Positions 7,346-28,165 of a stretch of 64,000 nucleotides of DNA are shown one piece after another. Every line of letters begins with the position of its first letter. Within the stretch, counting starts at the first letter, position 1. Both the position numbers and the translations under genes were made by a program. The notes below the pieces were generated by a model. The model saw nothing but the letters and a program-made list of their open reading frames with translations, was not told the DNA's origin and made no database searches. This DNA comes from Peristeroidobacter agariperforans. Its GTDB lineage: Bacteria; Pseudomonadota; Gammaproteobacteria; Steroidobacterales; Steroidobacteraceae. The stretch is taken from positions 2,873,244-2,937,243 of the forward strand of contig NZ_RYFW01000001.1 in NCBI RefSeq assembly GCF_004138335.1, in the 5' to 3' direction.

Positions 7346-7349
7346 CGCA

Positions 7350-12027: not shown

Positions 12028-14796
12028 ATGAGGCTCAGAAATTCATTCCTGTATTCGATGTCGGCGGTGACGCTGCTCGGCTCGGCGAGCGCTGCATTTG
12101 CGCAGGAAGCCGCGCCGGCCGCGGGCGCCGAGCAACTCGAAGAAGTTGTCGTCACCGGCATCCGTCAGAGCCTCGAGCGTGCCGCGGAGATCAAGCGGGA
12201 ATCGGCGCAGGTCCTCGATTCCATCGTCGCCGAGGACATCGGCAAGTTCCCGGACGCGACCACCGCGGCGGCGCTTCAGCGCGTGCCGGGCGTGCAGGTC
12301 ACCGTCGGTTCCAATAACGAAATCACGGGCGTTTTGATCCGTGGCCTGGGCGATATTCTGACGACGCTGGACGGTCGCGAGATCTTCTCGACAACCGGCC
12401 GCGGCTTCGCCGTGCAGGATCTGCCGGCCGAAGCGCTGTCGCGCGTCGACGTGATCAAGAGCAGCACCTCGAACCTGATCGAAGGCGGCATCGCCGGCGT
12501 GACCGATCTGCGTCTGCACAAGCCGTTCAACTTCAATGAACGCACGTTCGTTACCACGGCGCGCGCGAACTATCCCGACAACGTCGATGAAGTGAACCCG
12601 CAGTTCGGCTTCCTCGCGACCGATCGCTGGGATGTCGGCAACGGCGAAATCGGCGCGCTGCTCAACGTGACCTGGTACAAGAACGATTTCGATCGGCCGA
12701 TCTCGTTCGTCGCCGAGCGCCGCAGCCTGGTCGGCGCGCCGCACGGAGAAACTGGCGTGCTGGCGCCGAATACATTCGGCGGCTTGAACGACTACGGTTG
12801 GTACGAGCGTCCGCAGGCGAACCTCGCCATTCAGTGGCAGGCCACCGACAACCTCGAGGTCTACATGGACGGCCTCTATGCGGGTTACCGCGACGAGCAA
12901 CAGTCGGCATTCGTCGCGACGCCGTTCTTCTTCGCCGAGACGCAGCTGGAGAGCCTGGAGGTCGATGAGAGTCGCTGCTTCCTGTCGCGCGTGACGCCGG
13001 GTGGATTCAATCCCAATCTGAACGACCTCGGTAGGAAGGACGCAGAGGGCAATCCCGACCCCAATTTCACGACGGACACGCTGTGCAATATGGAGTCCGC
13101 GCGTTTCTCCAACGTTCGCGGTTTGACGAGCACGCAGGCCAAGCAGCAGGACGTCGATAACTATCTCGGCGCGATCGGCTTCAAGTGGAACAACGGCCCG
13201 ACCAGCGTGAAGTTCGATACCGCGTACCAGAAGTCCGAGCGGGAGTTTTCCAACGTCATCGTCGACATCGGCAAACACATCACCGTCGACATCGACACCG
13301 ATGTGAACGAGGGCGGCATGACCTGGCACCCCGGCAATCCGCTCGGCACGGAAGGCGGCTGGTTCCTGCGCAATGGCTTGAACCAGAACTTCGAAGAATC
13401 CACCGGCGAGTTGTGGCAGACGCGGCTCGATTTTCGTCACGAGCTCGATGGCGCGTTCGGCTTCATCCGCGCCATCGAGGCTGGCGTTCGTTACGCCGAT
13501 CGCAGCGCGCTGTTCGAACAGGCGCAGCTCAATGTGGGGGCGCCTGGCGGCGACCTGGTCACGTCGCTGGACGGTCTGCCGCTGCCGGCTGACTTCCTGG
13601 TGCGCTCGCCCGGTATCGATCGCATCAACAACGGCGCGTCGGTCCTCACGCCGAATCCGGATTACCTGCGCTCGGCGGCGGGTCGCGATGTCCTGCGCCA
13701 GATCTATGGTGCCCCGACGGGCAATCCGGCGTTCCAGCCGCAGCGTCGCTTCGATGCGTCCGAAGACACCTACGCAGCTTACTTCCAGTTGGATTATTCG
13801 GTCCCGGTCGGTGGTCTGACCATCGATGGTCTGATCGGCGCGCGTCCGACGCGCACCGAGCGGCACATCGAGGGCGCCGGTGTGGTGAGCGGCGTGGTGA
13901 TTCCGCGCATTGCGGACACGACCGACACGGAGGTTCTGCCGAACGCGAGCGCTCGCATCGACTTCAACAACGGCCTGCAGGCTCGCGTGTCGTACGCGAA
14001 GACGATGCGCCGTCCGGAGTTCACCGCGCTGAATCCCGGTCTCAACTACATCGTTGCGACCAATCCTTCCGTGATCAACTCCGGCAACGCAGGCAACCCG
14101 AATCTGAAGTCGCAGATCTCGGACAGCTACGATGCAACGCTCGAGTATTACTTCGGGCCGAGCATGGTGTCGGCCGCGGTGTACTACCGCGATCTCAAGG
14201 ATCGCGTGATCACCGCCCCGAACACGGAAACGATCGATGGCATCGACTACAACATCAGCCGTCCGCGTAACGTCGGCGCCGCCACGTTGCAGGGTATCGA
14301 GGTGAGCGGCCAAACGTTCTTCGACTTCCTGCCCGGAGCCTGGTCCGGCTTCGGTGCGTTCGCGAACTACACGTATGCGGACACCGAAGTGAAGGGTGAC
14401 GATGTGCTGGCAGGCTTCCCGCTGCAGGGCGTGTCCAAGGACAACTTCACCGTCGGCTTGCTGTACGACAAGTTCGGCGTGTCGGGGCGTCTGGTGTACA
14501 CGGCACGTTCGCGTTACTACGATGCGGATATGACGGGTACCAACATCGCCCGTCCGATCGAAGCGGATCGCGTGAATGATCTGGAGTACATCCCGACGGC
14601 GCTGAACTATGTGCGGCCGGGTGGCCGTCTGGACTTCAGCATCGGCTACGACATCACGGACGCCATCCGAGTCGATGTCGGCGGCAGCAACATCCTGCGC
14701 AACCAGTACAAGAGCTACTTCGACCTCGATTGGCTCAATCGCGACTTCCGGTACGACGACACGATCTACACGCTCGGCGTCCGAGTCCGGATGTAA
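12028..14796 (+). CDS. TonB-dependent receptor (Xanthomonas/Caulobacter type)
   Basis: A 922-aa outer-membrane transporter with a signal peptide ending at SASAAFA. A plug domain follows and opens with LEEVVVTGIRQSLERAAEIK and DSIVAEDIGKFPDATTAAALQRVPGVQV, the hallmark of the large receptor family used for carbohydrate uptake in xanthomonads and caulobacters. The rest is a beta-barrel rich in aromatic-ended strands. It ends in GVRVRM, where barrels more usually end in Phe. The start at 12028 is chosen because TTAAAGG sits at good spacing and the signal peptide begins there; an in-frame upstream extension is ignored. A sulfatase gene begins 3 bp after its stop, so the receptor and hydrolases are one operon. 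The ligand is probably an oligosaccharide. Confidence 0.93.
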   Translation: MRLRNSFLYSMSAVTLLGSASAAFAQEAAPAAGAEQLEEVVVTGIRQSLERAAEIKRESAQVLDSIVAEDIGKFPDATTAAALQRVPGVQVTVGSNNEITGVLIRGLGDILTTLDGREIFSTTGRGFAVQDLPAEALSRVDVIKSSTSNLIEGGIAGVTDLRLHKPFNFNERTFVTTARANYPDNVDEVNPQFGFLATDRWDVGNGEIGALLNVTWYKNDFDRPISFVAERRSLVGAPHGETGVLAPNTFGGLNDYGWYERPQANLAIQWQATDNLEVYMDGLYAGYRDEQQSAFVATPFFFAETQLESLEVDESRCFLSRVTPGGFNPNLNDLGRKDAEGNPDPNFTTDTLCNMESARFSNVRGLTSTQAKQQDVDNYLGAIGFKWNNGPTSVKFDTAYQKSEREFSNVIVDIGKHITVDIDTDVNEGGMTWHPGNPLGTEGGWFLRNGLNQNFEESTGELWQTRLDFRHELDGAFGFIRAIEAGVRYADRSALFEQAQLNVGAPGGDLVTSLDGLPLPADFLVRSPGIDRINNGASVLTPNPDYLRSAAGRDVLRQIYGAPTGNPAFQPQRRFDASEDTYAAYFQLDYSVPVGGLTIDGLIGARPTRTERHIEGAGVVSGVVIPRIADTTDTEVLPNASARIDFNNGLQARVSYAKTMRRPEFTALNPGLNYIVATNPSVINSGNAGNPNLKSQISDSYDATLEYYFGPSMVSAAVYYRDLKDRVITAPNTETIDGIDYNISRPRNVGAATLQGIEVSGQTFFDFLPGAWSGFGAFANYTYADTEVKGDDVLAGFPLQGVSKDNFTVGLLYDKFGVSGRLVYTARSRYYDADMTGTNIARPIEADRVNDLEYIPTALNYVRPGGRLDFSIGYDITDAIRVDVGGSNILRNQYKSYFDLDWLNRDFRYDDTIYTLGVRVRM

Positions 14797-14799
14797 GCG

Positions 14800-16503
14800 A
14801 TGGCAGTGAAGAGCTTGCTCAAGCAGGTTGGAGCGGCGCTGGCAATCGGCGCCGCGCTTTGGGCACAGACCTCATCGGCGGCGCCGGCCGCCGATGAGCG
14901 TCCGAACTTTCTGATCATCATGGCCGACGACCTCGGCTATTCCGATGTCGGCGCCTATGGCGGCGAGATCGATACTCCCAACATCGACCGTCTCGCGTCG
15001 GGCGGGCTGCAGTTCACGAACTTCTACAACTCGGCTCGCTGCTCGCCTTCTCGCGCCAACCTGCTCACCGGACGCTATGCGCATCGCGTGGGCATGGGCG
15101 AGAACGGCGGCAGCATGTCGGTCGACGTGCGCACGGTGGCGCAGGAGCTCAAAGATGCTCACTACCGGACCGCGATGGTCGGCAAGTGGCATCTCACCCG
15201 CGCCACACCGCTCGCCGATCCGGCGGAGCATTTGAAGTGGATCAATCACCAGGCCTACCTCGAGCGTGACTTCGGCGATCGCTCGACCTATCCGGCGGCG
15301 CGTGGCTTCGAAACTCACTATGGTTTGATCTGGGGCGTCTCCAGCTATTTCGATCCGTTCTCGCTGGTCGAAGGCTTCGAGCCGGTGCGCACCGTGCCGA
15401 AAGATTTTTATCTCACCGACGCGCTGAGCGATCGCGCCGTGAGCGATATCGAGTCGTTCGCCAAGGACGAGCGTCCGTTCTTCATGTATCTCGCCTACAC
15501 CGCGCCGCACTGGCCGTTGCACGCACCCGAGCAGGCCATCGCGAAGTATCGCGGCCGGTACGACGGGGGCTGGGAACAATTGCACGAGGCGCGTTACGCC
15601 AGGCAGGTGAAGCTCGGCCTCATCGATCCAAAGACCGCGCCGAAGGCGCAACTGTCCGGTGATTGGGCGCAGAATCCTGAGAAGCCGTGGGCTCAACTGA
15701 GCCAGGCTGAGCGCGCGCAAGCAGCCGCGAAGATGCCTGTGCACGCGGCCATGATCGATGTCATGGACCAGGGCATCGGACGAGTCATCGATGCGCTGAA
15801 ACGCACCGGCCAATATGAGAACACAGTGGTCGTGTTCCTCGCGGACAACGGCGCTTCGCCGGAAACGATGACGGGCACTCAGGGCTATCAGCCCGGCTAC
15901 GATCGTCAGAGCGAAACGCGTGACGGCAGAAAGATTCACTATGGCGCCGATCAACCGGCCTTGGGATCGGAGACCAGCATGGCCGGCATCGGCGCGTACT
16001 GGGCGAATGCGGCCAACACGCCGTGGCGCTATTGGAAAGCCGAAGCATACGATGGTGGCGTGCATACGCCGTTCATCGTCAGCTGGCCGAAGGGCCTCAA
16101 GCTGAAGCCAGGCACCCGAGTGGACACGCTCGGTCACATCATGGACATCGCGCCGACGTTCTTTGAGCTGGCCGGCGTGCAGCCACGCACCGAGGGTCAG
16201 CCGCCGATCGATGGTATCTCGCTGGCGTCAGCATTGGCCGGCAAGAAGACGTCACGTGGCAAGCCGCTGTTCTTCGAGCACGAAGGCTCACGGGCCGTGA
16301 TTCTCGACGACTGGAAACTGGTGGCGCGAGCGCCGGGACCGAAGTCGAAGGTTTATGCGCCGTGGTCGCTCTACCATCTGAAGACGGATCGCACCGAAAC
16401 GCGCGATCTGATCAAAGCAGAGCCAAAGCGCGCGGCGACGATGGCGAAGCTTTGGAACGAATGGTCTACGTCCGTTCACGCACGTCAACGAAGCGAGCCC
16501 TGA
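14800..16503 (+). CDS. Exported sulfatase (formylglycine-dependent)
   Basis: A 567-aa type I sulfatase that hydrolyses sulfate esters, here probably on a glycan in the periplasm. A signal peptide (to about residue 27) is followed by the metal-binding block NFLIIMADDLGYSDVGAYGG. The CSPSR motif at residues 81-85 has the Cys that is converted to formylglycine, with RAN and LLTGRYAHRVGMG after it. AMVGKWHL and FLADNGASPET are further family blocks. The gene begins 3 bp after the receptor stop, and its own stop overlaps the next start by 1 nt, so translation is probably coupled. No formylglycine-generating enzyme is encoded in the window; one must act in trans. The exact substrate is unknown. Confidence 0.93.
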   Translation: MAVKSLLKQVGAALAIGAALWAQTSSAAPAADERPNFLIIMADDLGYSDVGAYGGEIDTPNIDRLASGGLQFTNFYNSARCSPSRANLLTGRYAHRVGMGENGGSMSVDVRTVAQELKDAHYRTAMVGKWHLTRATPLADPAEHLKWINHQAYLERDFGDRSTYPAARGFETHYGLIWGVSSYFDPFSLVEGFEPVRTVPKDFYLTDALSDRAVSDIESFAKDERPFFMYLAYTAPHWPLHAPEQAIAKYRGRYDGGWEQLHEARYARQVKLGLIDPKTAPKAQLSGDWAQNPEKPWAQLSQAERAQAAAKMPVHAAMIDVMDQGIGRVIDALKRTGQYENTVVVFLADNGASPETMTGTQGYQPGYDRQSETRDGRKIHYGADQPALGSETSMAGIGAYWANAANTPWRYWKAEAYDGGVHTPFIVSWPKGLKLKPGTRVDTLGHIMDIAPTFFELAGVQPRTEGQPPIDGISLASALAGKKTSRGKPLFFEHEGSRAVILDDWKLVARAPGPKSKVYAPWSLYHLKTDRTETRDLIKAEPKRAATMAKLWNEWSTSVHARQRSEP

Positions 16504-18368
16504 TGACACCTCGAGTGGGACAGCGAGCTGCAGCGCTGGCGGTGATGTTGGCGCTGTGCGCGTCGACCGCACTCGGTCAGACGAAGCGCAGACCGCCCGC
16601 CGACGATATCTTTCTCGATCACCCGTCCCAGGATAAGAACGCGACGGTGATGCCGTCGGCGAACGCGCGGCCAGTCGAATCCTTGTTCGCTTCGCGCGCG
16701 TTGCTGGATGCGTCGATTGCCCGCTCCTCGAACAACGAGTGGTTTTTGACGGGCACGGTGCTGCGTGCGTTGCCACGCGATGGCATTCAACTTTGGACGT
16801 CGAGGGATCGACGTAGCTGGCGCTCGCTCGGCATCGTTCATGCGAAGGGCGAGCGAGTCACGGCGCCGGACATTGCAGTTCACGGTGACTCGCTTTATCT
16901 CACCTATACGGATGCGGCGGGCTGCGCTCGCGTGGCGCGTGGATCGGCGGCAAAGCCAGCCGAGCCTTACGTCGGTTCGCCCTGTCTCGTCAAGAATGCT
17001 GCCGACGCCTCGTTGTTCATCGATGACGATGGCTCGGCGTATCTGCTCTGGGGTGCAGGCATGATCGCGCGGCTGCAGACGGACATGCAGCGCCTGGCCG
17101 AGACGCCGCGTTTCCTGAAGCCGGATCCAGCGCTGCTTGCGACCAATCCGCCGCCGGGCAAGGATTGGCCGGTGCGAACGCGCGTTGGCTCGGCGGGGGC
17201 TGCGATGTTCAAGGACAACGGCCGCTATGTGCTGCTGGCCAACGAAGTCACGGGACGGATGCGCAGCCCGACCGACGATGTGTTCATGGCCGAAGCGCCG
17301 ACGCCGTATGGTCCGTTCTCCCTGCGCTATCTCGCAGTTCCTCACGCTGGTCAATCCTCGATCGTGCGGGATGATCAGGGCGCGCTGTACGCGAGCTACA
17401 ACCCGAAATGTGAAGACGACTTCTCGTTGTTCTGCGAGCAGGTCGGCCTGGTGCCGCTCGAGCGCTCGCCGGATGGGCGTCTGCGACAGTCAGCAAACAT
17501 TCTCACCGAGAACAGTGCCGTCGCGTCTGCGCGTCCGCTGCTCACCAGTGAGATGATGCGCGATCCGTCCGTCGCGCTCGGCGGCGACGGTCAATACTAT
17601 CTGGTCGGCACGCAAGGCGGATTCGGCTACGCATATCCCAACGGCGGCATTACGTTGTTCCGTTCGCAGGATCTGAAGACCTGGGAGAAGGGCGCGACAG
17701 TCTTCAATTGGAAAGGTCTGGGGCGCACGTTCAAGAACACTGCAGAGCTGTGGGCGCCAGAAATCACCTGGGTGGACAGCGATCAGACCTACTACATCGC
17801 GTTCTCCATCATGGAACGTGACGTCGGCGGCAAGACCTGGATCTATCGCTCCAAGACGGGCAAAGCGGAAGGCCCGTATGAAAACGTCGCGCGCGAAAAC
17901 TTCGTGCAGGGCATCGACGGGTTCCTGTTCGAAGATGGCGGCGATCTTTATCTGCTGTGGGGCGGCGGCAATCTCGGCAAGCTGAATGCCAAGCGCGACG
18001 CATTCGACGGACCGGTGCGTCGGCTCGTCGATACCGACGGCGAGCACATCGGCTACGAAGGCAACGCACTCATCAAGATTGGCGACACCTATTTCGTGAC
18101 CGGCGCCGAGTGGAATGGTCCGCTGCGCACCCATGGAACCTACGACATGATGTACGGCAGCTCGAAGTCTCTATTCGGTCCCTACACCAAGCGCAGGCTC
18201 GGCGCTCCGCACGCGGGGCACGGCACGCCGTTCCGAGACAAGGAAGGTCGCTACTGGTCGACGATGTTCGGCAACGACGTGACTTCGCCGTGGCGCCGTC
18301 AGTTCGGGCTCATCCCGCTGGACATCGGCGACGAGCGCGCCATTCGCGTGCCCGGCATCCAGCGCTAG
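16503..18368 (+). CDS. Exported two-lobed GH43 family protein
   Basis: A 621-aa protein with a signal peptide (RAAALAVMLALCASTALG) and two five-bladed-propeller lobes of the GH43 type in tandem. The C-terminal lobe (about 340-621) has classical motifs: MMRDPSVALGGDGQYYLVGT for the catalytic Asp region, and ELWAPEITWVDSDQTYYIAF with the general-acid Glu. In the N-terminal lobe (about 50-330) the matching block reads TAPDIAVHGDSLYLTYT, with Asp in place of the acid, so it may be a non-catalytic or altered lobe. The ATG overlaps the sulfatase stop (TGATG); a longer upstream frame inside the sulfatase gene is rejected. The last base pairs overlap the convergent neighbour. Arabinan or galactan side chains are plausible targets. 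Confidence 0.85.
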   Translation: MTPRVGQRAAALAVMLALCASTALGQTKRRPPADDIFLDHPSQDKNATVMPSANARPVESLFASRALLDASIARSSNNEWFLTGTVLRALPRDGIQLWTSRDRRSWRSLGIVHAKGERVTAPDIAVHGDSLYLTYTDAAGCARVARGSAAKPAEPYVGSPCLVKNAADASLFIDDDGSAYLLWGAGMIARLQTDMQRLAETPRFLKPDPALLATNPPPGKDWPVRTRVGSAGAAMFKDNGRYVLLANEVTGRMRSPTDDVFMAEAPTPYGPFSLRYLAVPHAGQSSIVRDDQGALYASYNPKCEDDFSLFCEQVGLVPLERSPDGRLRQSANILTENSAVASARPLLTSEMMRDPSVALGGDGQYYLVGTQGGFGYAYPNGGITLFRSQDLKTWEKGATVFNWKGLGRTFKNTAELWAPEITWVDSDQTYYIAFSIMERDVGGKTWIYRSKTGKAEGPYENVARENFVQGIDGFLFEDGGDLYLLWGGGNLGKLNAKRDAFDGPVRRLVDTDGEHIGYEGNALIKIGDTYFVTGAEWNGPLRTHGTYDMMYGSSKSLFGPYTKRRLGAPHAGHGTPFRDKEGRYWSTMFGNDVTSPWRRQFGLIPLDIGDERAIRVPGIQR

Positions 18369-18970
18369 AGGCTGCGGAGCCAGGCGTGCCCGGGGTGGCA
18401 AACCTCGAGGGCTTGCGCCAGCCAAAGGCGGTCCGCCGGAGGTAGTGTCGGCAAGGTTTGTTCGAAGTCGTCCTGATCCTTCGTGCGCGGATTCTTTGCT
18501 TTGTAGAGCAGTACTACCTGCGGGCAGAGATAGGGGATGCCGCGCGTCGTTCGGCGACTCATCGCCGACAGCGGCAGCGAGATGGAAGGGTTGCGGCGGA
18601 ACTGCCAGTGAGTCTGGGACGCTTCGTTCAACAGCAATTCCAGTCGTGTCCCGTTACGCTCCGCGTGTACTTCGTGAATCGGCAGCGCGAGCTCTTCAGG
18701 CTCCGTCCAAGGCTGCTGTTGTCCATCGACCATCTTGTGTACAGACCAGCCGGATAGAAATTGCCGAAGGCTTTGCTGATCCCGCCGCAGCACTGCTACG
18801 TCGATGTCCTGATGAGCGCGATGGCTCGCGCCTCGATGCAGGTCGAGTGCCCAGCCTCCTGCAATCCACCAGGGAGCGAGGTATGCCGCGAGGATGTTGC
18901 AGACCGGGGCCAGCGCGTCCAAGTCAGGATTGCGGCCGGCTCCCTTCCGGGAGCTGACCGAGAAAGTCAT
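18365..18970 (-). CDS. Nucleotidyltransferase-like protein (aminoglycoside 2''-adenylyltransferase fold)
   Basis: A 201-aa protein resembling the family of small nucleotidyltransferases related to aminoglycoside 2''-adenylyltransferase. The block WWIAGGWALDLHRGA, followed by HQDIDVAVLRRDQ near residues 34-62, provides the GG and DxD-like metal site. ELLLNEASQTHW and VVLLYKAKNPRTKDQDDF further match the fold. Substrate and any resistance role are unknown. The ATG start at 18970 overlaps the upstream lipoprotein gene by 47 nt. A TTG at 18922, one base after that gene's stop, is an alternative that would remove the overlap and 16 residues. The stop codon lies in a CTAG shared with the stop of the convergent GH43 gene. 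Confidence 0.7.
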   Translation of the reverse strand: MTFSVSSRKGAGRNPDLDALAPVCNILAAYLAPWWIAGGWALDLHRGASHRAHQDIDVAVLRRDQQSLRQFLSGWSVHKMVDGQQQPWTEPEELALPIHEVHAERNGTRLELLLNEASQTHWQFRRNPSISLPLSAMSRRTTRGIPYLCPQVVLLYKAKNPRTKDQDDFEQTLPTLPPADRLWLAQALEVCHPGHAWLRSL

Positions 18971-19505
18971 TGAGGCTGCGGCGGCCGTCCTGCCATTCTT
19001 CGTAGCGTCGCGGCGCCTCGGGATTGCCGCTGGCAGTGAGCTCGATGCGAGTCGAGTGGGAGATGGCGCGCAGCTCGTCGCGGCTGATCGGGAAATAGAT
19101 GGGACTCGATCCGGGAATCGGCAAGGGCAGCGCCTGGCTGATGCCCAGCTCCGAGACTTCGCCGGGGTGGCGCGTGAGGGCGACGGTGCGATCGCCCAGG
19201 TTCACTTCGATCTGTTTGAACGCCTGTTGGAATGCGCCAGCCGGGTCGGACCACGGTTCGGTCGCGCCCCACAGAATGGCGACCAGGTAGAGCTTGCGCT
19301 CGCCCATGCGATTTACTTCGATCGCGGTCAGCTGGGCGTAGTCCCGCGCGTTCAGACTCGGTGCTGGTTCAGCTCGAATGAGCACGAGCGGTTCGGTCTG
19401 GGCGGTGATCGTGACGGATGACTTGGGATCCATCCATGACTTGACCGTCGGCTGCGCTACGCACCCCGCCAGCATCAACGTCAGAAGCAGCGCTGAATAT
19501 TTCAT
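18924..19505 (-). CDS. Putative lipoprotein, unknown function
   Basis: A 193-aa protein with a lipoprotein signal: MKYSALLLTLMLAGC, with Cys at 15 in an LAGC lipobox. The mature part carries no motif I recognise; it includes a segment rich in charged residues and YFPISRDELRAISHSTR near residue 140. It is encoded downstream of the membrane protein and ECF sigma factor genes on the same strand. A role in the envelope-stress or sensing system encoded by that operon is plausible but not shown. Confidence 0.72.
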   Translation of the reverse strand: MKYSALLLTLMLAGCVAQPTVKSWMDPKSSVTITAQTEPLVLIRAEPAPSLNARDYAQLTAIEVNRMGERKLYLVAILWGATEPWSDPAGAFQQAFKQIEVNLGDRTVALTRHPGEVSELGISQALPLPIPGSSPIYFPISRDELRAISHSTRIELTASGNPEAPRRYEEWQDGRRSLNDFLGQLPEGSRPQS

Positions 19506-19554
19506 GGACGGTCCCCACAGGCCAGGATGGGCCGATCTTACAAGAAGCGCCGAA

Positions 19555-20142
19555 TCAGCGCTCCGGTTCCCCCAACGCCGACAGAGCGTCGATCTCCCGC
19601 TGGCACTGCGCCGCCTTGTATCGCTCGTAGATCATGGAAACGACGAGCCATGCGACCAGCATGCCGAGTACGCCCCACGGCGCCGATGTTCCTCGAGTCT
19701 GCGGATCGCCGAAGAAGTTCCAGCCGAGCATGGCGATGACTCCGGGCGCCATAGGCAGCACGTACCAACGCCATAGCGTTCGATGGATATCGCGCTTGCG
19801 CTCCAGCTCGCGCTTATAAAACGACAGGCTGGCTGCACTGGATTCGGACGGGTCGGTCCTGAACGGGGCAGTCCGCCGGCGCCACTGCCACATGCCGTAA
19901 GCGGCGCCGATCAATAACAGCGCCGCCGCCGATTTGACCCAGGGATGGGGCGCCAAGAGGATCACTACCGAGCACCCGGCCAGCGCCAGCAGGCCCGCGC
20001 CTTGTTCCAGCCAGTTACGGATGCGAAAGGCTCGGTGCAACTCGCCAGTGCGATGGCGAACATAGGAAACAGACATCGCGGGTACCCCCGTGGATTGCGC
20101 GCGCCAGAGAGCTTTGATGGGAGCGTCGTTGTGCTCGGTCAT
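19555..20142 (-). CDS. Membrane protein co-encoded with an ECF sigma factor
   Basis: A 195-aa protein with about four hydrophobic segments, at roughly 47-66, 68-86, 126-145 and 152-172. A basic, charged stretch (FYKRELERKRDIHRTLWRWY) lies between the second and third segments. The N-terminal 45 residues are predicted to be cytoplasmic. Its start overlaps the stop of the ECF sigma gene by 4 nt (ATGA), so it is translationally coupled. By position it could be the anti-sigma factor for that sigma, though no zinc-binding anti-sigma motif is visible. Confidence 0.75.
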   Translation of the reverse strand: MTEHNDAPIKALWRAQSTGVPAMSVSYVRHRTGELHRAFRIRNWLEQGAGLLALAGCSVVILLAPHPWVKSAAALLLIGAAYGMWQWRRRTAPFRTDPSESSAASLSFYKRELERKRDIHRTLWRWYVLPMAPGVIAMLGWNFFGDPQTRGTSAPWGVLGMLVAWLVVSMIYERYKAAQCQREIDALSALGEPER

Positions 20143-20708
20143 GACTGATGTCCCTCGTACAACTGTACGAGCAGGCGTTTGGCTCGATGGATCTTGACGC
20201 CGACGTGGCTCATGGACAGGCCGGTCACCTCGCTGATCTGTGCGGTGTCCAGGTCATCCAGATACAGCAGCACGATCTGGCGATCGAGCGGTTTGAGCTG
20301 GCCGATCAGCGTGTTCAGCAGCCCGAGCCGCTGTTCATCGTCGAGCTGACGAGCCGCATCGTGAGGATCGATGGGCTCGATGATTTCTTCCAGGTTGCAC
20401 AGCTCGCGATGGCTCAGGCGCTGGCGTCGAGTGACGTGCCGGGCCGCCATGTTGTGCGCCACCCGATACACCCAGGTGCCGAGCGAGCAGCGGCCATCGA
20501 AAATCGCAAAGCTTCGCCACAGTTCAAAATAGATCTCTTGTTGGAGATCCGCGCGCAGCTCGCGATTGGCTTCGTTCGCGTAGGCGATGCGTGCAATGGC
20601 TGGCCCGAACTCGGCCACGGCGCGAGCAAACAACCGATCCGCGGCGTCGGCGGTTTCGGCAGATCGAGGCAGCGCGTCCCAGGGCCTATCGGGTGAAAGT
20701 CCGTCCAT
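20139..20708 (-). CDS. ECF-type RNA polymerase sigma factor
   Basis: A 189-aa sigma-70 family protein with regions 2 and 4 only. Region 2 includes LQQEIYFELWRSFAIFDGRCSLGTW and VYRVAHNMAARHVTRRQR (about residues 53-98). Region 4 has the helix-turn-helix DLDTAQISEVTGLSMSHVGVKIHRAKRLL near residues 150-180. It is translationally coupled to a four-TM protein gene and lies 42 bp downstream of the secretin N-domain gene. It is the second sigma factor of this leftward operon, which suggests a cascade or a two-signal arrangement. Its target promoters are unknown. Confidence 0.9.
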   Translation of the reverse strand: MDGLSPDRPWDALPRSAETADAADRLFARAVAEFGPAIARIAYANEANRELRADLQQEIYFELWRSFAIFDGRCSLGTWVYRVAHNMAARHVTRRQRLSHRELCNLEEIIEPIDPHDAARQLDDEQRLGLLNTLIGQLKPLDRQIVLLYLDDLDTAQISEVTGLSMSHVGVKIHRAKRLLVQLYEGHQS

Positions 20709-20750
20709 GCACAGTTAGTACGCGCTGCCCGGGTTTTCTTACACGCCAGT

Positions 20751-21350
20751 TCAGTTTGACTTGGTGGCGGGCGAAGCGCATTTCTCGGGCGTGTAAGGCT
20801 CCCCGGTATCGAGCGCGGTCACGATTTTTTCCAGGCGCTTCACGTTGGCGTAGGTGTCCACGAGCAGCAGATTGTTCTTGCAGGGCAAGGCTACCAGATG
20901 GGCTTGTTGGGGCAGCAAGGGGCGCAGAATGGGGACCAGCATCGCCGCCGATACGTTCTTGATGGAGAAGACCCGGGTGACGTATTCGGCGCTGGCGTAA
21001 GAGCCATCGTTGGTCAGCATGGGAATGGCCAGTTGGCGCGCGCTCGCGTCAGGCACGACACGGACATATTTGCCGTCGTCGACCGCGGTGAATCCGTGCA
21101 CCTGTAGCACGGACAGCAGCGTGGGATAGTCGAGGCCATCGGGATCGAGGCCGATCACGGTCACGTCGCCGGCAACGCGTGGGTCGACAAGAAACTTCTT
21201 GCCGGTTTTCTTGGCCGTGCCCGCGATCACTTGTGCAATGGGAACGGCATCTTTGCTGGTGGAGGGCGAGCTTTGCGCTTGCGCGTGAGGTGCGAGCAGC
21301 AGCGCGAGAACAGCGCACGCGTGCGAGAAGATGCGGAAACGGGACTTCAT
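20751..21350 (-). CDS. Stand-alone secretin N-domain (GspD N0/N1-like) protein
   Basis: A 199-aa exported protein with a signal peptide ending at APHAQA. The mature part looks like the periplasmic N-domains of a type II secretion secretin. An N0-like segment runs over about 35-105 (KFLVDPRVAGDVTVIG, LLSVLQVHGFTAVDDGKYVRVVPD). An N1-like segment runs over about 125-188 (TRVFSIKNVSAAMLVPILRPLLPQ, NNLLLVDTYANVKRLEKIV). The pore-forming secretin domain is absent, so it cannot form a channel. Its start overlaps the stop of the PstS-like gene by 4 nt (ATGA), which indicates coupled synthesis. It may dock onto a secretin or act as a periplasmic partner of the PstS-like protein; this is inference. 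Confidence 0.82.
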   Translation of the reverse strand: MKSRFRIFSHACAVLALLLAPHAQAQSSPSTSKDAVPIAQVIAGTAKKTGKKFLVDPRVAGDVTVIGLDPDGLDYPTLLSVLQVHGFTAVDDGKYVRVVPDASARQLAIPMLTNDGSYASAEYVTRVFSIKNVSAAMLVPILRPLLPQQAHLVALPCKNNLLLVDTYANVKRLEKIVTALDTGEPYTPEKCASPATKSN

Positions 21351-22792
21351 CGGGGAACACTCCTTTCAGGGATGAGGTCGGACTCGGAAAGTGTCTGCCA
21401 GGGGCGGGACCGCTGTGCCTTCGCTTCATGCTCCTCGAGGCCGACGAACCCGGAGCCGCCGCGAGCGAAACGCTCCAGTGACTGCAGCTCGCGCATGACG
21501 TCATAGGCTTCAGTCACGCGAGTGAGGTGTGTCAGGTCCACATACAGATAAATCGGCCGGGCGAGCGGATAACTGCCGTCTGCAAACGCCGCGGTGGAGG
21601 GCTCCGGGCCTTCGAGGGCGCTGGCGGAGAGTTGGTCTCGGTTCTCGCGATAGAACTCGTAGTCCACGAGCACGAAGGCATTCGGGTCGGCCCAAAGGTT
21701 CTGTGGAATCAGCGATGCGGTTTGTTCGACTTCCGAGTAGAGACGATCGCCACGCACCGTGTGGCAGAGCTCCGCGTGCAGGGTCGGGTTGGCGATGCGC
21801 AGCCTTTCGATAGATCGCTGCGCGTTGCAGCCAGGCTCGAGCAGCGCCGTTGCGAACAGCTGGTGCAGGGGAGTGGCGCGAGCGGGTCCAAACAGCGCGA
21901 TGGGGCGGTACTCGAGTTTGAAATCGACCTGGTCCCAGGTGACGTTCGAGTTGTCGATGAAGCGCGCCGGCTCGAGGGGATCGGGGATGCGTTTCGCGGC
22001 CGCAAGATACACATCGCTGGCTGACAACTTCATTGGCGTGCTGTCGCGACCGCTCGTGAGTACCAGCGCCTGATAGCCGAGTTTCGACTCGATAATTCTG
22101 TCGATGCCATTGCGACGGCAGGTCGCAAATTCAGCATGAGCAATGCGCCGGGACGCTACCACCATATCGAACTGCCGAGCGTTGCCAGGTGCGCACAGCG
22201 CTGCAAGAGCCGCGTCTGCTTCGATCGTCTCTACACGGGGCGTGGCGCCGGATTTGCGGGGTGGCTGACGGTTTATAACGCTTCGTACCAGCGCATCCGT
22301 GAGCGGCGACACTGCAATACGCGCTGCCTGTTGCGATCGAATCAGCCCGCCCTGCATCGTCTGCTCCGAGGGGCTCGGTACAGCCGCGGCGGAACCTGCT
22401 GCTGCCGGTCCCGACTGAGCGGGGAAGCCGGTGTTTGCGGGCGAGCCTGCCGGTTCGTGTGCGTTGTCGATGCCAAGCGGGGCCGCGTCGTTTCCTTCGG
22501 GCACGAACCCCGGGCCGAGCGATCGCGGTCGATACGCGGCCGGGTCCGACTTTGCAGCGGCGATCTGCGCTTGCGACTGCGCGGGTTCTGCACGCTCGGA
22601 GGAATGCTTTTCAAGAACTAACATTCCGCCGGCGAACGCCGACCCCACGATGAGAAACACCAGGGCGCGGGTCCGCAGCGACCAGGAGCGCCGCTTTGCT
22701 CGTGCGTCCTGCGCCTGCAGCTGCTGCTTGAGCCGACGCGCGAACTGAGGCGGCGGGTCGCGTCGAAGTGCTTTCAAGAATTCGTCATTCAT
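21347..22792 (-). CDS. Membrane-anchored PstS-like periplasmic sensor, candidate anti-sigma factor
   Basis: A 481-aa protein with three parts. Residues 1-40 are cytoplasmic and charged (MNDEFLKALRRDPPPQFARRLKQQL), like the short cytosolic arm of some sigma regulators. One transmembrane helix follows at about 43-62 (ALVFLIVGSAFAGGMLVL), then a proline/alanine/serine-rich linker to about 150. The rest resembles a PstS-type phosphate-binding protein: ISPLTDALVRSVI-like opening, DMVVASRRI, SKLGYQALVLTSGRDSTPMKLSASDVYLA, and DGSYPLARPIYLYVDL near the end. The gene begins 15 bp after an ECF sigma gene and overlaps the secretin N-domain gene by 4 nt. I infer a one-pass sensor that couples a periplasmic ligand to the sigma factor. 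A canonical anti-sigma domain is not recognised. Confidence 0.72.
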   Translation of the reverse strand: MNDEFLKALRRDPPPQFARRLKQQLQAQDARAKRRSWSLRTRALVFLIVGSAFAGGMLVLEKHSSERAEPAQSQAQIAAAKSDPAAYRPRSLGPGFVPEGNDAAPLGIDNAHEPAGSPANTGFPAQSGPAAAGSAAAVPSPSEQTMQGGLIRSQQAARIAVSPLTDALVRSVINRQPPRKSGATPRVETIEADAALAALCAPGNARQFDMVVASRRIAHAEFATCRRNGIDRIIESKLGYQALVLTSGRDSTPMKLSASDVYLAAAKRIPDPLEPARFIDNSNVTWDQVDFKLEYRPIALFGPARATPLHQLFATALLEPGCNAQRSIERLRIANPTLHAELCHTVRGDRLYSEVEQTASLIPQNLWADPNAFVLVDYEFYRENRDQLSASALEGPEPSTAAFADGSYPLARPIYLYVDLTHLTRVTEAYDVMRELQSLERFARGGSGFVGLEEHEAKAQRSRPWQTLSESDLIPERSVPR

Positions 22793-22807
22793 CGCTGCTT
22801 CCTGTCA

Positions 22808-23338
22808 TCACCATTGCGAACGCAGCGTCTGAACGATTCGATACAACGAGGTACCGACGTTCGATTCGCTCAACCCGGTGAGGCGCGCGATCTCGCGATT
22901 GTTGAGAGCGGCGCCATACTTCAGTGCGATCAGCTCTTGCTCGCGTTCGGGGAGTCGGGCGGTGAGCCGGCCCAGTCGTGACAAATCGGAATCTCGCACG
23001 GCCTCCAGTTCCGGCGTGATCTCGGCGGCAAGATCGACGGCGGCATCCAGCGGCGCGTGCGGGCGGCGGGAGCGCAAGTAGTCGATGCCCACGTTCTGGG
23101 CGATGCGGAACAGCCACGTCGAGAATCCGGCCAGGTCGCGACGATAGCGGGCGCGGGCCGACCAGGCCTTCTCGAAGGTACGTGCGGTCAGGTCCTCGAC
23201 CTCGGCTCCGCCACCCAGCCTGAACCGGAAATAGTTGTAAATGCGTGGCAGCTGATCCGCGTACACCGCGTCCCAGTCCACTTTGTCCGCCGGCTCCCGG
23301 GAGCGGGCGTTGGCCATGTCCATCTGTTGCGAGACCAT
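22808..23338 (-). CDS. ECF-type RNA polymerase sigma factor
   Basis: A 176-aa sigma-70 family protein. Region 2 runs over about residues 25-90 with YNYFRFRLGGGAEVEDLTARTFEKAW and FSTWLFRIAQNVGIDYLR. Region 4 runs over about 120-175 with LPEREQELIALKYGAALNNREIARLTGLSESNVGTSLYRIV. Nearby ATGs at codons 6 and 8 could be the true start. It is the first gene of a leftward run of seven genes and is divergent from a small lipoprotein gene. The next gene, a membrane-anchored PstS-like protein, is the natural candidate for controlling it. Confidence 0.91.
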   Translation of the reverse strand: MVSQQMDMANARSREPADKVDWDAVYADQLPRIYNYFRFRLGGGAEVEDLTARTFEKAWSARARYRRDLAGFSTWLFRIAQNVGIDYLRSRRPHAPLDAAVDLAAEITPELEAVRDSDLSRLGRLTARLPEREQELIALKYGAALNNREIARLTGLSESNVGTSLYRIVQTLRSQW

Positions 23339-23453
23339 GAAAGGTATATACGGCGCAGGCCCGGAAGTATCACGGCCATCGGTGAAAGGGCAGTGTCAAG
23401 CTGGCCTGCCGCGGATGATTCCGTCACCATAGCGGCGAGGTAAAGAAGCCACC

Positions 23454-23915
23454 ATGCGATCCGTATTCATCCTGCTCGTTCCCGGCATCCTCGCCCTGGC
23501 CGCCGGCTGCGGCGAACAACGCGGCCCAACCGTCTATGTCCTCGAGGGACAGCAAACGGTCGAGTTGAAAGCAACGGCATCGCCCATGAAGGTGCAACCG
23601 GGCGGGCAGGTGGTGTTACATGTCGAGCGCCGCACCACCGGGCAGTGGAAGAAGGTTTCGCGCAGCGAGCTCAGGCCCGGCCAGTGCTGGGTGTATCGGC
23701 CGCCGGTCGAAGTCGAGCCCGAAGTGGCGCACAGCGTCCAGTGGGAAGTGGTTCCCGAGAACGCGGTCGAGTTCCACAGCGAGTACCAGCTCGATCAATC
23801 GCGCGTCGCCACCGTGCGCGCGTCGGGTAAGGTGACATTGACGCCGATTGATAAAGTCAAATGCGAAGAAGATCGCGTCGTGGCCGGCAACACGATCGAG
23901 ATCGACGCCTCCTGA
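23454..23915 (+). CDS. Small putative lipoprotein
   Basis: A 153-aa protein with a lipoprotein signal: MRSVFILLVPGILALAAGC, with Cys at 19. It has no recognised domain; the mature part is predicted to be beta-rich and includes a charged segment with two further Cys (PGQCWVYRP and DKVKCEED). AGGTAAAGAAG lies upstream of the ATG. It is divergent from the ECF sigma operon and convergent with the BNR-repeat exoprotein gene, whose stop is 2 bp away. It may belong to the sigma regulon, but no motif shows this. Confidence 0.75.
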   Translation: MRSVFILLVPGILALAAGCGEQRGPTVYVLEGQQTVELKATASPMKVQPGGQVVLHVERRTTGQWKKVSRSELRPGQCWVYRPPVEVEPEVAHSVQWEVVPENAVEFHSEYQLDQSRVATVRASGKVTLTPIDKVKCEEDRVVAGNTIEIDAS

Positions 23916-23916
23916 T

Positions 23917-26364
23917 TCAGCGTGGCGAGCGCCGCCGAGGCGGCGCGATCAAAGCCAGCAACGCAAGGCAGAGCATGAAATGAAGTGACATGCCGCCGCC
24001 GCCGCCGCTACTGCCGCCGCCGCTACTGCTGCCACCACTACTGCTACCACCGCCACCACTGCCACCACCACCGTTATCGCCACCTCCGCCGGAGCCGGGC
24101 GGGGGGGCAATCACGGGGTCAGTCGCAGTGTTATTCCCAGCAACCGTATCGCGCTCACGCGCAGTCACATTTGCTTGCACGTTCAATTGGGCCGCTGCAG
24201 GCAATGTGTAAGTGACTCGCGCCGTTGCATCGGCGTCCAGTTTCACGAATGGCAGCGAACAACGCACCGTCGTTGCGGCGGTCGTGCACGTGCCGCCGGG
24301 CAATTCCGCCGACACAGCGCTCGCGCCGGCCGGCGCCTGGATATCCAGCGCGACTCCGGTCGCCGCCAGCGGACCGATGTTATGAACGCGCACGTCGAAG
24401 CGATTCGGGGCGCCGTTGGCGCGATTGTCGGTGTGGTCGTGGATGCTGACTTCCAGATCCGGTGCGGTTTCAAAAGAGTGCAAGCCGGCGTCGCCGGTGG
24501 CGACAATTATCGTGGTTGGTGCGGCGGCATTGATTGTCAGCATGCGCGATGACCACCACGGGAACAGATGCGGGGTGGGCATGCGCTCCCACGAGGCGCC
24601 CGCATCGACAGAGCGAAGCAACAAATCTCCGGCGACGCCCGAGCTCAGGACGTACATGACATCAGGCGCCGCCGGGTCCAGCGCGATCGCGAGGGGGCTG
24701 CCATAAATGGAGCCCACGAAAGAAGGCAGCGGCGCGAAGCTGGCCCCGCCATTGTTGCTGACATTCAGAGTGCTGGCGGACACCGAATACATGCGGCTGG
24801 AATCGGCCGGATCGATCGCAATGTCGAAGGGCGCGTTGTGGGGCAGGACTCTGTTCCAGGTAGCGCCGCCGTCGACCGAGCGGAAGACGCCGTTGTTGTT
24901 GCCGCCTATTTTCAACGACGTGAGCAGCATTCGTGCGGAGTTGTGTGGATCGACCAGCAGGTGCGTGGCTTCAATGTCGTTCAGCCCACTCCCACCGACC
25001 GGTGTGAACGTGGCGCCGCCATCGGTGCTGCGCTGGATGATTGCCTCAGAGGTCCCTTGCGGAGACAGGGCCAGATAAATGTTCTGCGGATCCTGCGGAT
25101 CGAACGCGAGCGCATCGATCCGGGTCAGCGCAAGGTTGGCAGGGCCCACGTTCCACGAAGCGCCACCGTTGTTGGAGTAGCGCACGCCCCTGGCCGTGCC
25201 GGCCAGGATGATGTTTGGATCCGTGGGATGCGCGGCGAGCGAGCTGATCGTCAGGCCCGGAGCGGTCACAATCGATCGTTGCAGGGGGCCCTCGTCCGCA
25301 TCGCCGATGCCGATCTCGACTCTTCCCGTGGACGCATAGACTCGACCGCCACCGGTGGCCAGGTGGCGCACATGGGCTGCGCTGAGCCCGTCGTCCGAGC
25401 GCGTCCAGGTAGCGCCTGCATTGGCGGTTCGAAACACTCCGATCCCTGTGCCCGCGAGCACCACCTGAGGGTTGCTGGCCGAAATGGCGACGGAATACAT
25501 GCGGGCCGGCAAGTCGCCAACATCTGTCCAGCTGCCCGCCGAATAGCGGCGCACGACGCCGATGCCATTGATCGGGCTGGCGTACAGAGTGGATGGAACG
25601 GCGGGATCCGAATGTACGGCGTATCCGGGCAGGGTGGGGCTCGACGGCCATGCAGAGCCGTCATCCGGCTTGGAATACACGCCCCCGGGCGTGTTTGCCC
25701 ACAAAATATTGGGTGAACCCGGAGTCACCGCGAAGTCGCTGCTGCCGTTGGGCAGCGTCAGCGTGAGCCAGGTATCGCCGCCATTCTGGGTTTTCAACAG
25801 TGTGCTGAACCACCCGGCATAGACGACCGAGCTGTTGGCTGGATCCACGACCAGCCTGGTACCGCGTGCCGGCATGGCGGGGCGCTCCGAAAAGTTCGCG
25901 CCGCCATCGGTGCTGCGGAAGAACTGCTGTGCGTCGGTCGAGTAATAGATGGTATTGCCATCGGCGGAAATCGCCAGACCAGCTGCGTAGTTGATGCCTT
26001 CAGGCGCGTATGGACTGATATTCACGAACGTGGCGCCGGCATCGGTCGAGCGCCACAGGCCGGAGTCCCCCGCTATGGCGTAGATCCGGTTCGGATTGGC
26101 AGGATCGAACTGAATCGGGCCGTAGTTGGCAAAGAACGGGTCGAGTTGGAACAACTGGCTCCAGCTGCTGCCCCCGTCGGTTGTTCTGTAAAGCGCGGCG
26201 GTGCCCCCTACTGCGAACGCGAGATCCGGCTGCGAAGGATGCATGGCGAGCCGGTAGATGGAGCCGCCAGACGGCCCGCGCGCAGACCAACTGTTGACCC
26301 CGCCGTGGGCGGCACAGGCCACCAACCACAGCAACACGCAGGCTCCCGACCGGATCGATCGCAT
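23917..26364 (-). CDS. BNR/sortilin-like beta-propeller exoprotein with GlyGly-CTERM-like tail
   Basis: An 815-aa secreted protein. A signal peptide (to about residue 22) is followed by many repeats of the BNR/sortilin type, for example YRTTDGGSSWSQLF, WRSTDAGATFVNI and FRSVDGGATWNRVL. These build one or two beta-propellers over about 25-640. A domain like the DUF11/CARDB repeats follows (VSIHDHTDNRANGAPNRFDVRVHNIGP, about 645-760). Then comes a Gly/Ser-only linker. The last 30 residues hold GGGGG, a hydrophobic helix (MSLHFMLCLALLALIAPP) and a basic end RRRSPR. This layout matches the GlyGly-CTERM signal that rhombosortase processes on type II secreted proteins. The function of the propeller is unknown; related folds bind glycans or proteins. 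Confidence 0.82.
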   Translation of the reverse strand: MRSIRSGACVLLWLVACAAHGGVNSWSARGPSGGSIYRLAMHPSQPDLAFAVGGTAALYRTTDGGSSWSQLFQLDPFFANYGPIQFDPANPNRIYAIAGDSGLWRSTDAGATFVNISPYAPEGINYAAGLAISADGNTIYYSTDAQQFFRSTDGGANFSERPAMPARGTRLVVDPANSSVVYAGWFSTLLKTQNGGDTWLTLTLPNGSSDFAVTPGSPNILWANTPGGVYSKPDDGSAWPSSPTLPGYAVHSDPAVPSTLYASPINGIGVVRRYSAGSWTDVGDLPARMYSVAISASNPQVVLAGTGIGVFRTANAGATWTRSDDGLSAAHVRHLATGGGRVYASTGRVEIGIGDADEGPLQRSIVTAPGLTISSLAAHPTDPNIILAGTARGVRYSNNGGASWNVGPANLALTRIDALAFDPQDPQNIYLALSPQGTSEAIIQRSTDGGATFTPVGGSGLNDIEATHLLVDPHNSARMLLTSLKIGGNNNGVFRSVDGGATWNRVLPHNAPFDIAIDPADSSRMYSVSASTLNVSNNGGASFAPLPSFVGSIYGSPLAIALDPAAPDVMYVLSSGVAGDLLLRSVDAGASWERMPTPHLFPWWSSRMLTINAAAPTTIIVATGDAGLHSFETAPDLEVSIHDHTDNRANGAPNRFDVRVHNIGPLAATGVALDIQAPAGASAVSAELPGGTCTTAATTVRCSLPFVKLDADATARVTYTLPAAAQLNVQANVTARERDTVAGNNTATDPVIAPPPGSGGGGDNGGGGSGGGGSSSGGSSSGGGSSGGGGGMSLHFMLCLALLALIAPPRRRSPR
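23986..24100 (-). repeat. Low-complexity Gly/Ser-coding DNA
   Basis: About 115 bp of CCG/CCA/ACT-type triplets encode the Gly- and Ser-only linker in front of the C-terminal sorting helix of the exoprotein. The stretch is coding and would be prone to length change by slippage. Confidence 0.7.
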
Positions 26365-26546: not shown

Positions 26547-27089
26547 ATGGATGCGCCGGGACAGGCACGCCGCGGCGAGCGCGCGGAGGCGGAACAAATA
26601 GCGCTGTTGTCGAGGCAGTTTCGCCCGGCGCTGCGGCGTTTTTTCAGTAAACGCGTCAAGGAACAGCACGACATCGAGGACCTGGTTCAGGACGTGTTCG
26701 TGCGCCTGGTGCGCAAAGTGCAGGCCGACGGTTCGCAGATCGTTGCCGGTTACGTCTTCCAGACCGCGCAGAGCGTGCTCAACGACTGGCTGCGCAAGCG
26801 CCAGGTGCGGCAGTCGTCCGCGCACGAGCAGATCGAGGTCGAGCTGCCGAACCTCGAGGACGATGCCACACCCGAGCGCGATCTCGCAGGCAAGCAGAGC
26901 CTGGCGAGCGCGACGGCGGCGGTGCTCGAACTGCCGGAGGTCACGCGCACGATCTTCCTTCTGCGACGGCTCGAGGGCATGCGTTACGCCGACATCGCAA
27001 AACGTTTGCAAATGCCGATGAGTACGGTCGAGAAGCACATGGCCCGCGCCGTGGCTCATCTCGATTTGCGTCTGAACGGGAAGTCATGA
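26547..27089 (+). CDS. FecI-type ECF sigma factor
   Basis: A sigma factor of about 180 aa with region 2 (RRFFSKRVKEQHDIEDLVQDVFVRLVR, about 30-58) and a region 4 helix-turn-helix (MRYADIAKRLQMPMSTVEKHMARAVAHL near the end). The VEKHMARA ending is typical of FecI-type sigma factors that work with FecR. The start at ATG 26547 is chosen because GGAG lies 12 bp upstream; an in-frame ATG-less extension upstream is possible. The gene overlaps the fecR-like gene by 4 nt (ATGA). The three-gene set that follows is the classic surface-signalling arrangement, in which the TonB receptor signals through FecR to this sigma. Confidence 0.91.
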   Translation: MDAPGQARRGERAEAEQIALLSRQFRPALRRFFSKRVKEQHDIEDLVQDVFVRLVRKVQADGSQIVAGYVFQTAQSVLNDWLRKRQVRQSSAHEQIEVELPNLEDDATPERDLAGKQSLASATAAVLELPEVTRTIFLLRRLEGMRYADIAKRLQMPMSTVEKHMARAVAHLDLRLNGKS

Positions 27090-28114: not shown

Positions 28115-28115
28115 C

Positions 28116-28139
28116 AACGCTGGCGGTTTTTCCAGCGTT
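28116..28139 (+). terminator. Hairpin between fecR and the receptor gene
   Basis: AACGCTGG-cggttttt-CCAGCGTT is a perfect 8-bp stem located 2 bp after the fecR stop codon and 26 bp before the receptor ATG. It could act as a partial terminator or as an mRNA-processing site that sets the receptor level apart from the regulators. The T-run lies in the loop, not after the stem, so a simple intrinsic terminator is not certain. Confidence 0.45.
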
Positions 28140-28165
28140 ACGCGTTCTTTGGAATATAGAGCCGT

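Follow-up and report, generated by a model that had tools for sequence, protein, structure and literature searches.

The 64,000-nt window analyzed here (contig NZ_RYFW01000001.1 of assembly GCF_004138335.1, positions 2,873,244 to 2,937,243 of the forward strand) belongs to the 7.65-Mb genome of Peristeroidobacter agariperforans, and its ORF listing contains a leftward row of seven open reading frames (ORFs) at positions 18365-23338 (Table 1). The first three genes encode an extracytoplasmic function (ECF) sigma factor (SIG1), a 481-aa membrane protein with a PstS-like periplasmic domain (P0002) and an exported, stand-alone protein made of GspD-type N0 and N1 domains (P0003), and we favor, with fair rather than high confidence, their interpretation as a probably self-activating module in which SIG1 is held by the 481-aa protein as anti-sigma factor and the N0-N1 protein docks on the PstS-like domain of the latter. 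The four genes that follow encode a second ECF sigma factor (SIG2), its membrane partner (TM5), a lipoprotein (LIP6) and a nucleotidyltransferase-like protein (NT7). Both sigma factors score above the TIGR02937 cut-off and bear Sigma70 regions 2 and 4, as is characteristic of the ECF type.

Conservation of the row was followed in 14 genomes of the genus, which is taken here as Steroidobacter, with genome G115 taken as Steroidobacter agaridevorans, the species whose strain SA29-B provides the only named relative found of the 481-aa protein (84% identity). A stand-alone N0-N1 gene is present in seven of these genomes (the source genome G000, G115, G106, G074, G085, G060, and G120), and in each of the seven it is preceded by SIG1 and the 481-aa-type gene in the same order. 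Conservation extends to three genes and not to the whole row of seven, which among the other core-bearing genomes is complete next to the core in S. agaridevorans alone. Hence, from a previous sequence-only reading that had proposed a seven-gene operon and suggested looking for its gene order in relatives, the existence of all seven ORFs and the conservation of the first three genes can be maintained, while the part comprising SIG2, TM5, LIP6, and NT7 is not general. Chance ORFs can nevertheless be discounted for the whole row, because the ratio of nonsynonymous to synonymous substitution rates (dN/dS) versus S. agaridevorans lies between 0.06 and 0.28 (SIG1 0.06, PstS-like protein 0.28, N0-N1 0.24, SIG2 0.10, TM5 0.20, LIP6 0.13, and NT7 counted from its TTG codon 0.19) and because the core trio stays together in 7/7 genomes. 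The genes are separated by gaps of 15 nt (SIG1 and 481-aa gene), 42 nt (N0-N1 and SIG2) and 49 nt (TM5 and LIP6). Of the 4-nt overlaps previously claimed for three junctions, two lie inside the row (21347-21350 between the 481-aa and N0-N1 genes, 20139-20142 between SIG2 and TM5) and are the only ones there, whereas at the third (18365-18368) the overlapping partner is a convergent gene of the opposite strand.

In a sample of 120 family genomes, SIG1 orthologues (E<=1e-40) were found in six, exactly those that possess full-length relatives of the 481-aa protein, and four of the 10 genus genomes within this sample lack both. The 481-aa protein is matched in 49 of the 120 genomes, with six matches starting at residue 1, all in the genus (the G106 copy came as two pieces), and the others, which include the relatives outside the genus, beginning at residue 131 or later. 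Likewise, 94 of 369 class genomes match the 481-aa query (A1), from residue 1 only in G000 and from residue 85 or later in the others. The flanks of the core vary: in G074 its neighborhood includes LysR and AraC genes, G085 has genes for a pseudouridine synthase and a resistance-nodulation-division (RND) pump there, G060 has DUF1801 and DUF222/HNH genes, and G120 has others again. A small lipoprotein-like gene divergent from SIG1 (23454-23915 in the window) is shared with G115 and G106 at identities of 94.8 and 79.7%, respectively, and was undetected in the core loci of G074, G085, G060, and G120.

Table 1. Predicted features of the SIG1 locus, given in window positions in the direction of transcription.
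Feature	Position	Strand	Remarks
Predicted SIG1 promoter, YGTGAYA-N15-CGTATAWA	23345-23374	-	ends 6 nt before SIG1 ATG
SIG1, ECF sigma factor, 176 aa	22808-23338	-	Sigma70_r2 4.6e-14, Sigma70_r4_2 1.1e-9
481-aa protein (P0002), proposed anti-sigma factor	21347-22792	-	PBP_like_2 5.7e-17, residues 157-422
N0-N1 protein (P0003), stand-alone, exported, GspD-type, 199 aa	20751-21350	-	type_II_gspD_N0 2.2e-13, Secretin_N 1.4e-8
Predicted second-module promoter, TGTAAG-N18-ACTA	20716-20743	-	within 42-nt gap ahead of SIG2
SIG2, second ECF sigma factor, 189 aa	20139-20708	-	Sigma70_r4_2 1.6e-11, Sigma70_r2 5.4e-10
TM5, 195-aa membrane partner of SIG2	19555-20142	-	overlaps SIG2 by 4 nt
LIP6, 193-aa lipoprotein, accessory	18924-19505	-	lipobox in sequence
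NT7, nucleotidyltransferase-like, accessory	18365-18922 (ORF from ATG 18970)	-	PF10706 (Aminoglyc_resit) 6.2e-11, 201-aa ORF

Architecture of the PstS-like protein and the stand-alone N0-N1 protein

The 481-aa protein is laid out as a cytosolic arm (residues about 1-40), a transmembrane (TM) segment (about 43-62), a linker (about 63-155) and the PstS-like periplasmic domain (about 156-430). Its topology is suggested to be N-in, C-out, since a single main hydropathy peak at residue 41-43 is preceded by net positive charge in 6/6 copies. Among these six copies the arm (residues 1-36) is the best conserved part, with a mean pairwise identity of 54.8% compared to 34.6% in the TM segment, 20.3% in the linker, 41.2% in the periplasmic binding protein (PBP) domain and 27.6% in the tail. 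The NCBIfam model 'antisigma' (NF052375) matches residues 8-86 weakly (1.4e-3, 18.7 bits versus a cut-off of 100). In the pertinent sections of a previous study, anti-sigma domains of less than 50 residues are set aside as possible class II ones, and the solved binding of CnrY to CnrH is described, where CnrY wraps its sigma factor with two helices (PMC7406223). The arm, too, comprises fewer than 50 residues ahead of a TM helix and might bind SIG1 in an analogous way, whereas for CnrY-CnrH the binding is structurally solved. To our knowledge, a PstS-like sensor is not part of the CnrY-like class II.

Prediction of the 481-aa structure alone, as advised by the sequence-only reading, gave a whole-model pLDDT (predicted local distance difference test) of 65, with most blocks of residues 151-470 between 69 and 91 and the arm at low confidence. 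PstS structures are the best fold matches (4jwo with Z 22.8 and 3.9 Å over 271 residues, 9jwy with Z 19.9 and 8.3 Å over 289), and the modeled periplasmic part has the PstS (PBP) fold. In common with PstS proteins (PF12849) it possesses the fold and scaffold residues, but it differs in being TM-anchored with a cytosolic arm and in the loss of the three motifs GSST, GTGGG, and GTRD, which we take to be the phosphate-pocket motifs of PstS structures. None of the seven module copies bears any of them as a whole motif, compared to 15 or 16 of 16 relatives outside the genus, and the letters left over are singles in single copies, save the R of GTRD, which is found in two. The GTRD column lies in a well aligned stretch, whereas GSST and GTGGG fall into a loosely aligned one with gaps in some copies, so that their loss may partly be misalignment. 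GSST, GTGGG, and three of the GTRD letters (G, T, and D) are preserved in two PBP_like_2 proteins encoded elsewhere in the genome, one of which has a transport permease gene as neighbor. On the other hand, four Cys columns (98, 124, 226, and 247) as well as N185, W190, G206, P207, R251, and D253 are kept in 7/7 module copies. Judged from the alignment, the periplasmic domain is under constraint without the usual phosphate motifs.

The N0-N1 protein shows a Sec-type signal peptide (our reading of the sequence) followed by N0 and N1 domains, its fold matches N0-N1 of XcpQ, and residues 21-184 are 46% identical to the GspD encoded by the same genome. Like the GspD secretins XcpQ and PulD it bears both N-domains, but it stops after N1, and the secretin pore domain (PF00263), present in the genome's GspD, is not listed for it at E<=1. 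Besides, a Cys pair (157 and 191) present in 7/7 module copies is absent from all 26 GspD sequences compared and is predicted to form a disulfide; an orphan protein from genome G094 bears both residues in one alignment and only the first in another. In a tree, 11 stand-alone proteins (the seven module copies and four from other genera) and the 26 GspD are placed on the two sides of one branch with a support of 100/100, and a recent truncation of GspD is rejected on account of this split. The GspD sequences derive from loci of earlier searches and are mostly best-scoring matches rather than randomly sampled ones. The tree excludes L091, which lies at a contig edge, and four duplicates (L004, L100, L101, and L102); L103, L077, L068, and L075 were flagged as long. 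At the 44 columns invariant in the 26 GspD, at least nine of the 11 stand-alone proteins keep the GspD letter at 28 positions, whereas at eight positions it is found in two or fewer.

Stand-alone N0-N1 proteins are not restricted to the module. A search of 296 genomes of the order gave, among the matches listed, such genes in at least four genomes of other genera (G094, G069, G011, and G129), that of G069 having been missed by the gene finder and taken from the search match. Neither SIG1 nor PstS-like hits were obtained in these four loci, save a weak sigma hit in G011, where an unrelated ECF sigma gene is located 4.2 kb from the orphan. Among the matches listed for the 369 class genomes only the proteins of G000 and G129 stood out, and none was identified outside the order, the short frames of G522 (206 aa) and G365 (343 aa) not being included in this count; a match in G303 was dismissed as a GspD cut by the contig end. 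Stand-alone N0-N1 proteins therefore look like a family of their own, identified in the sampled genomes only in this order. No common neighbors were seen for the orphan frames of other genera (L100:8221-8799, L101:8494-9063, L102:8700-9278, and L103:9001-9474), one of which is flagged with an in-frame TAG.

Promoter motifs and the adjoining SIG2-TM5 pair

Upstream of SIG1, the motif YGTGAYA-N15-CGTATAWA is present in 7/7 genomes with the N15 spacing fixed. As an in-frame ATG follows 5-6 nt past the motif in all seven, a leaderless SIG1 mRNA is predicted; in G074 this ATG is the second one, a first ATG overlapping the final motif base, and in G120 the start chosen by the gene finder is ten codons further downstream. 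Without mismatch the motif is found once per genome in six genomes, only at SIG1, and the G120 copy has one mismatch. The reversed motif, used as control with up to one mismatch, gave one match across the seven genomes. Autoregulation of SIG1 is considered likely. One additional site with one mismatch is common to G000 (C10:1199959) and G115 (C1:816937). It falls within a 379-aa open frame (L120:709-1848) where an Amidohydro_2 domain (residues 5-275) ends, and is followed 4 nt on by an in-frame ATG; chance is favored over an internal start because the same letters encode the domain end. A site of the relaxed pattern also lies ahead of a TM_HPP/CBS gene in both genomes (C10:1233636 in G000, C1:784855 in G115).

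A different motif, TGTAAG-N18-ACTA, precedes SIG2. Of the seven core genomes, G000 and G115 alone have SIG2 and TM5 beside the core; in the core loci of the other five, the SIG2 query matched just the SIG1 genes (four loci) and TM5 had no match. Relatives of TM5 occur in 9 of the 120 family genomes, belonging to several genera, and in seven of these nine loci a SIG2-type sigma gene precedes TM5 (L159 is counted among the seven, its TM5 being known just from the search match). The motif is present before all seven SIG2-type sigma genes, with one CGTAAG start and one ACTG end, compared to three occurrences in 1.14 Mb of strand sequence from other loci, the window and the S. agaridevorans locus included. 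The distance from the motif to an in-frame ATG is 7-8 nt in four of the seven (G000, G115, G011, and G044), suggesting a leaderless mRNA for these copies, and 33-40 nt in the remaining three. TM5 shows two hydrophobic blocks with hydropathy peaks near residues 51 and 153. These would fit the four TM segments ascribed to it in the sequence-only reading, though they fall short of proving them. The protein is probably the anti-sigma factor of SIG2. Altogether, SIG2 and TM5 are best read from these patterns as a pair of its own that adjoins the core and not as a stage of the SIG1 pathway.

A proposed sigma switch and its alternatives

The make-up of a trans-envelope signaling system, with sigma factor and putative anti-sigma factor, a PstS-like domain and a lone secretin N0-N1 protein, is supported by domains, folds and conserved gene order. 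In the mechanism we propose, the 481-aa protein would keep SIG1 at the inner membrane, with its arm of about 40 residues possibly serving as a minimal CnrY-like anti-sigma domain. In the periplasm, the PstS fold, which has probably ceased to bind phosphate, would act as a protein- or signal-binding sensor on which the exported N0-N1 protein could dock, as the free STN domain of TonB-dependent transducers docks on FecR-type anti-sigma factors. Titration, modification or a change of state of the N0-N1 protein would lead to cleavage of the anti-sigma factor or make it let go, and the freed SIG1 could transcribe its own operon. A precedent is FoxA, whose signaling domain, according to parts of a recent report, is cleaved off, binds FoxR without inducer and shields it from proteolysis (PMC11637429); by analogy, co-encoding of an N0-type domain with an anti-sigma factor would make sense.

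Several observations weigh against this proposal. No Pfam anti-sigma family reaches its cut-off on the arm, which is modeled as two helices at low confidence only (pLDDT means of 46-66 for the blocks of residues 1-40). The module is carried by only seven genomes of one genus. Of further pocket positions, the columns Asp108, Ser113, and Arg114 are kept in 5/7, 4/7, and 7/7 copies, respectively. The N0-N1 protein may have a role of its own, as its at least four relatives in other genera have neither SIG1 nor a PstS-like protein in their loci. Moreover, no wider SIG1 regulon is visible with the motif, the relaxed pattern not being clearly above the reversed control (11 versus 9 sites in G000, 13 versus 16 in G115, and 12 versus 15 in G106). 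Finally, in the nearest described system, VreA-VreI-VreR of Pseudomonas aeruginosa (PUMA3), a vreA deletion mutant starved of phosphate had wild-type regulon levels, as stated in the relevant passages of one study (PMC4971064).

The PUMA3 system resembles the module by plan, in that an ECF sigma factor, a membrane anti-sigma factor (a proposed one in the module) and a small barrel-less STN-type periplasmic protein are co-encoded. As described in part of the original report, VreA is a barrel-less periplasmic protein with an STN and a modeled TolA-like domain, is encoded with VreI and VreR and adjoins the Hxc type II secretion genes (PMC2729926). In the module, the N0-N1 gene is linked to SIG1 and P0002 in 7/7 genomes, and for P0002 the anti-sigma role is the one we infer. 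The sensor half of this 481-aa protein is PstS-like and has no FecR domain, the gene order differs from PUMA3, and the second domain is a secretin N1 in place of the TolA-like one of VreA. Furthermore, expression of vreAIR is, in the sections concerned, described as driven by PhoB and not controlled by the system itself (PMC4971064), whereas SIG1 has a conserved ECF-like promoter motif. Similarly, the module shares with FecI-FecR-FecA a sigma factor, an inner-membrane anti-sigma factor (again as proposed) and a periplasmic STN-type domain but has neither a FecR domain nor a TonB-dependent receptor; PF04773 and PF16220, the FecR families, are not listed for the 481-aa protein at E<=1. The window also encodes, at 26547-31171, a canonical set of ECF sigma factor, FecR protein and TonB-dependent transducer with STN domain, on which the FecR and STN models were tried as a positive control; its FecR protein (27086-28114) matches both PF04773 and PF16220.

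Judged by titles and abstract openings of the open-licence literature searched, no PstS-type anti-sigma factor was found, and no regulator consisting of secretin N0-N1 domains alone. The sequence-only reading's statement that no system of this make-up had been described can thus be upheld for this literature, but has to be qualified by the close parallel to PUMA3. The module looks like a previously undescribed variation on known trans-envelope signaling, although one of the numbered groups in the ECF catalogue of Casas-Pastor et al. may already cover it. If the proposal is true, a phosphate-binding protein, minus its binding pocket, and secretin N-domains have been reused jointly for sensing in a sigma switch, and STN-type signaling would extend from TonB transducers to a free domain derived from a secretin. 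It would also open to testing the idea that bacteria monitor their type II secretion system (T2SS) through a secretin mimic.

The latter represents the strongest of the alternatives, though we regard it as rather unlikely. Here, N0-N1 would, as a GspD mimic, shuttle between the secretion machine (GspC and GspD) and the PstS-like anti-sigma factor, and SIG1 activity would report assembly or load of the secretion system via free N0-N1 and the pocketless sensor. The T2SS is a candidate for withdrawing N0-N1 because the latter is GspD-like, as evident from the identity to the genome's own GspD and the 28 of 44 invariant columns retained, and because the genome encodes GspC and GspD, besides GspE and GspF. 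In addition, according to a section of the PUMA3 report, overexpressing VreI in P. aeruginosa increased expression of the neighboring hxc T2SS genes (PMC2729926). However, the GspD letter is lost at eight of the 44 columns, no T2SS gene is seen beside the module, all 11 relaxed promoter sites of G000 are more than 100 kb away from gspD (the only T2SS gene placed), and GspD-type matches occur as well in the seven genus genomes that lack the module.

Doubtful to a higher degree is a phosphate or oxyanion sensor, in which the PstS-like domain would bind the anion and control SIG1, with N0-N1 being incidental. The PstS ancestry is clear, including the fold matches to 4jwo and 9jwy, Asp108 and Arg114 are largely or fully retained, and in the single locus outside the genus that was typed by Pfam the PBP relatives are found near PhoR, a porin and a PstC-like permease. 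Nevertheless, phosphate, proposed as possible ligand in the sequence-only reading, is judged unlikely because GSST, GTGGG, and GTRD are lost in 7/7 module copies and largely kept in the two other PBP_like_2 proteins of the genome, and no permease is encoded among the typed flanking genes of the module. Equally improbable is that the 481-aa protein is merely a binding protein anchored in the inner membrane and that SIG1 is controlled otherwise; this would agree with the lack of any curated anti-sigma domain at cut-off, but linkage to SIG1 in 7/7 genomes, the conserved cytosolic arm and the topology argue for the anti-sigma role. Least probable is a two-stage cascade with SIG1 driving SIG2 as later stage of one operon, as put forward previously: read-through is plausible on the same strand across a 42-nt gap without terminator-like site, but SIG2-TM5 pairs occur apart from the core, without SIG1 and with their own promoter motif, and are missing beside it in 5/7 genomes.

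Accessory and neighboring genes

The remaining genes of the row are regarded as accessory. For LIP6, whose start reads as a lipobox-type signal, and for TM5 no Pfam family is found above cut-off, and for LIP6 none at E<=1. Beside the core, LIP6 is present in S. agaridevorans and G106 only, out of six other core loci. The nucleotidyltransferase-like character of NT7 noticed earlier agrees with its PF10706 match. The 47-nt overlap of the LIP6 and NT7 ORFs is probably due to a wrong start, because the S. agaridevorans frame begins with a TTG straight after the lipoprotein stop and the same TTG is found in the window at 18922, which is thus probably the true start rather than the ATG at 18970. Although PF10706 is the family of aminoglycoside-2''-adenylyltransferases, a resistance role is not indicated since curated resistance models match far below their cut-offs. 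PADLOC gave AbiEii for NT7 (8.4e-4) as sole match, and no Rfam match was obtained across 17900-24000.

Two further features of the window were noted. A series of TonB receptor, sulfatase and GH43 genes at 12058-18368 resembles a polysaccharide-use cluster, and at 4940-8027, next to a CofC-like gene, a protein is encoded that combines two radical-SAM stretches with a C-terminal region of the CofH type and looks like a CofG/CofH fusion of F420 synthesis.

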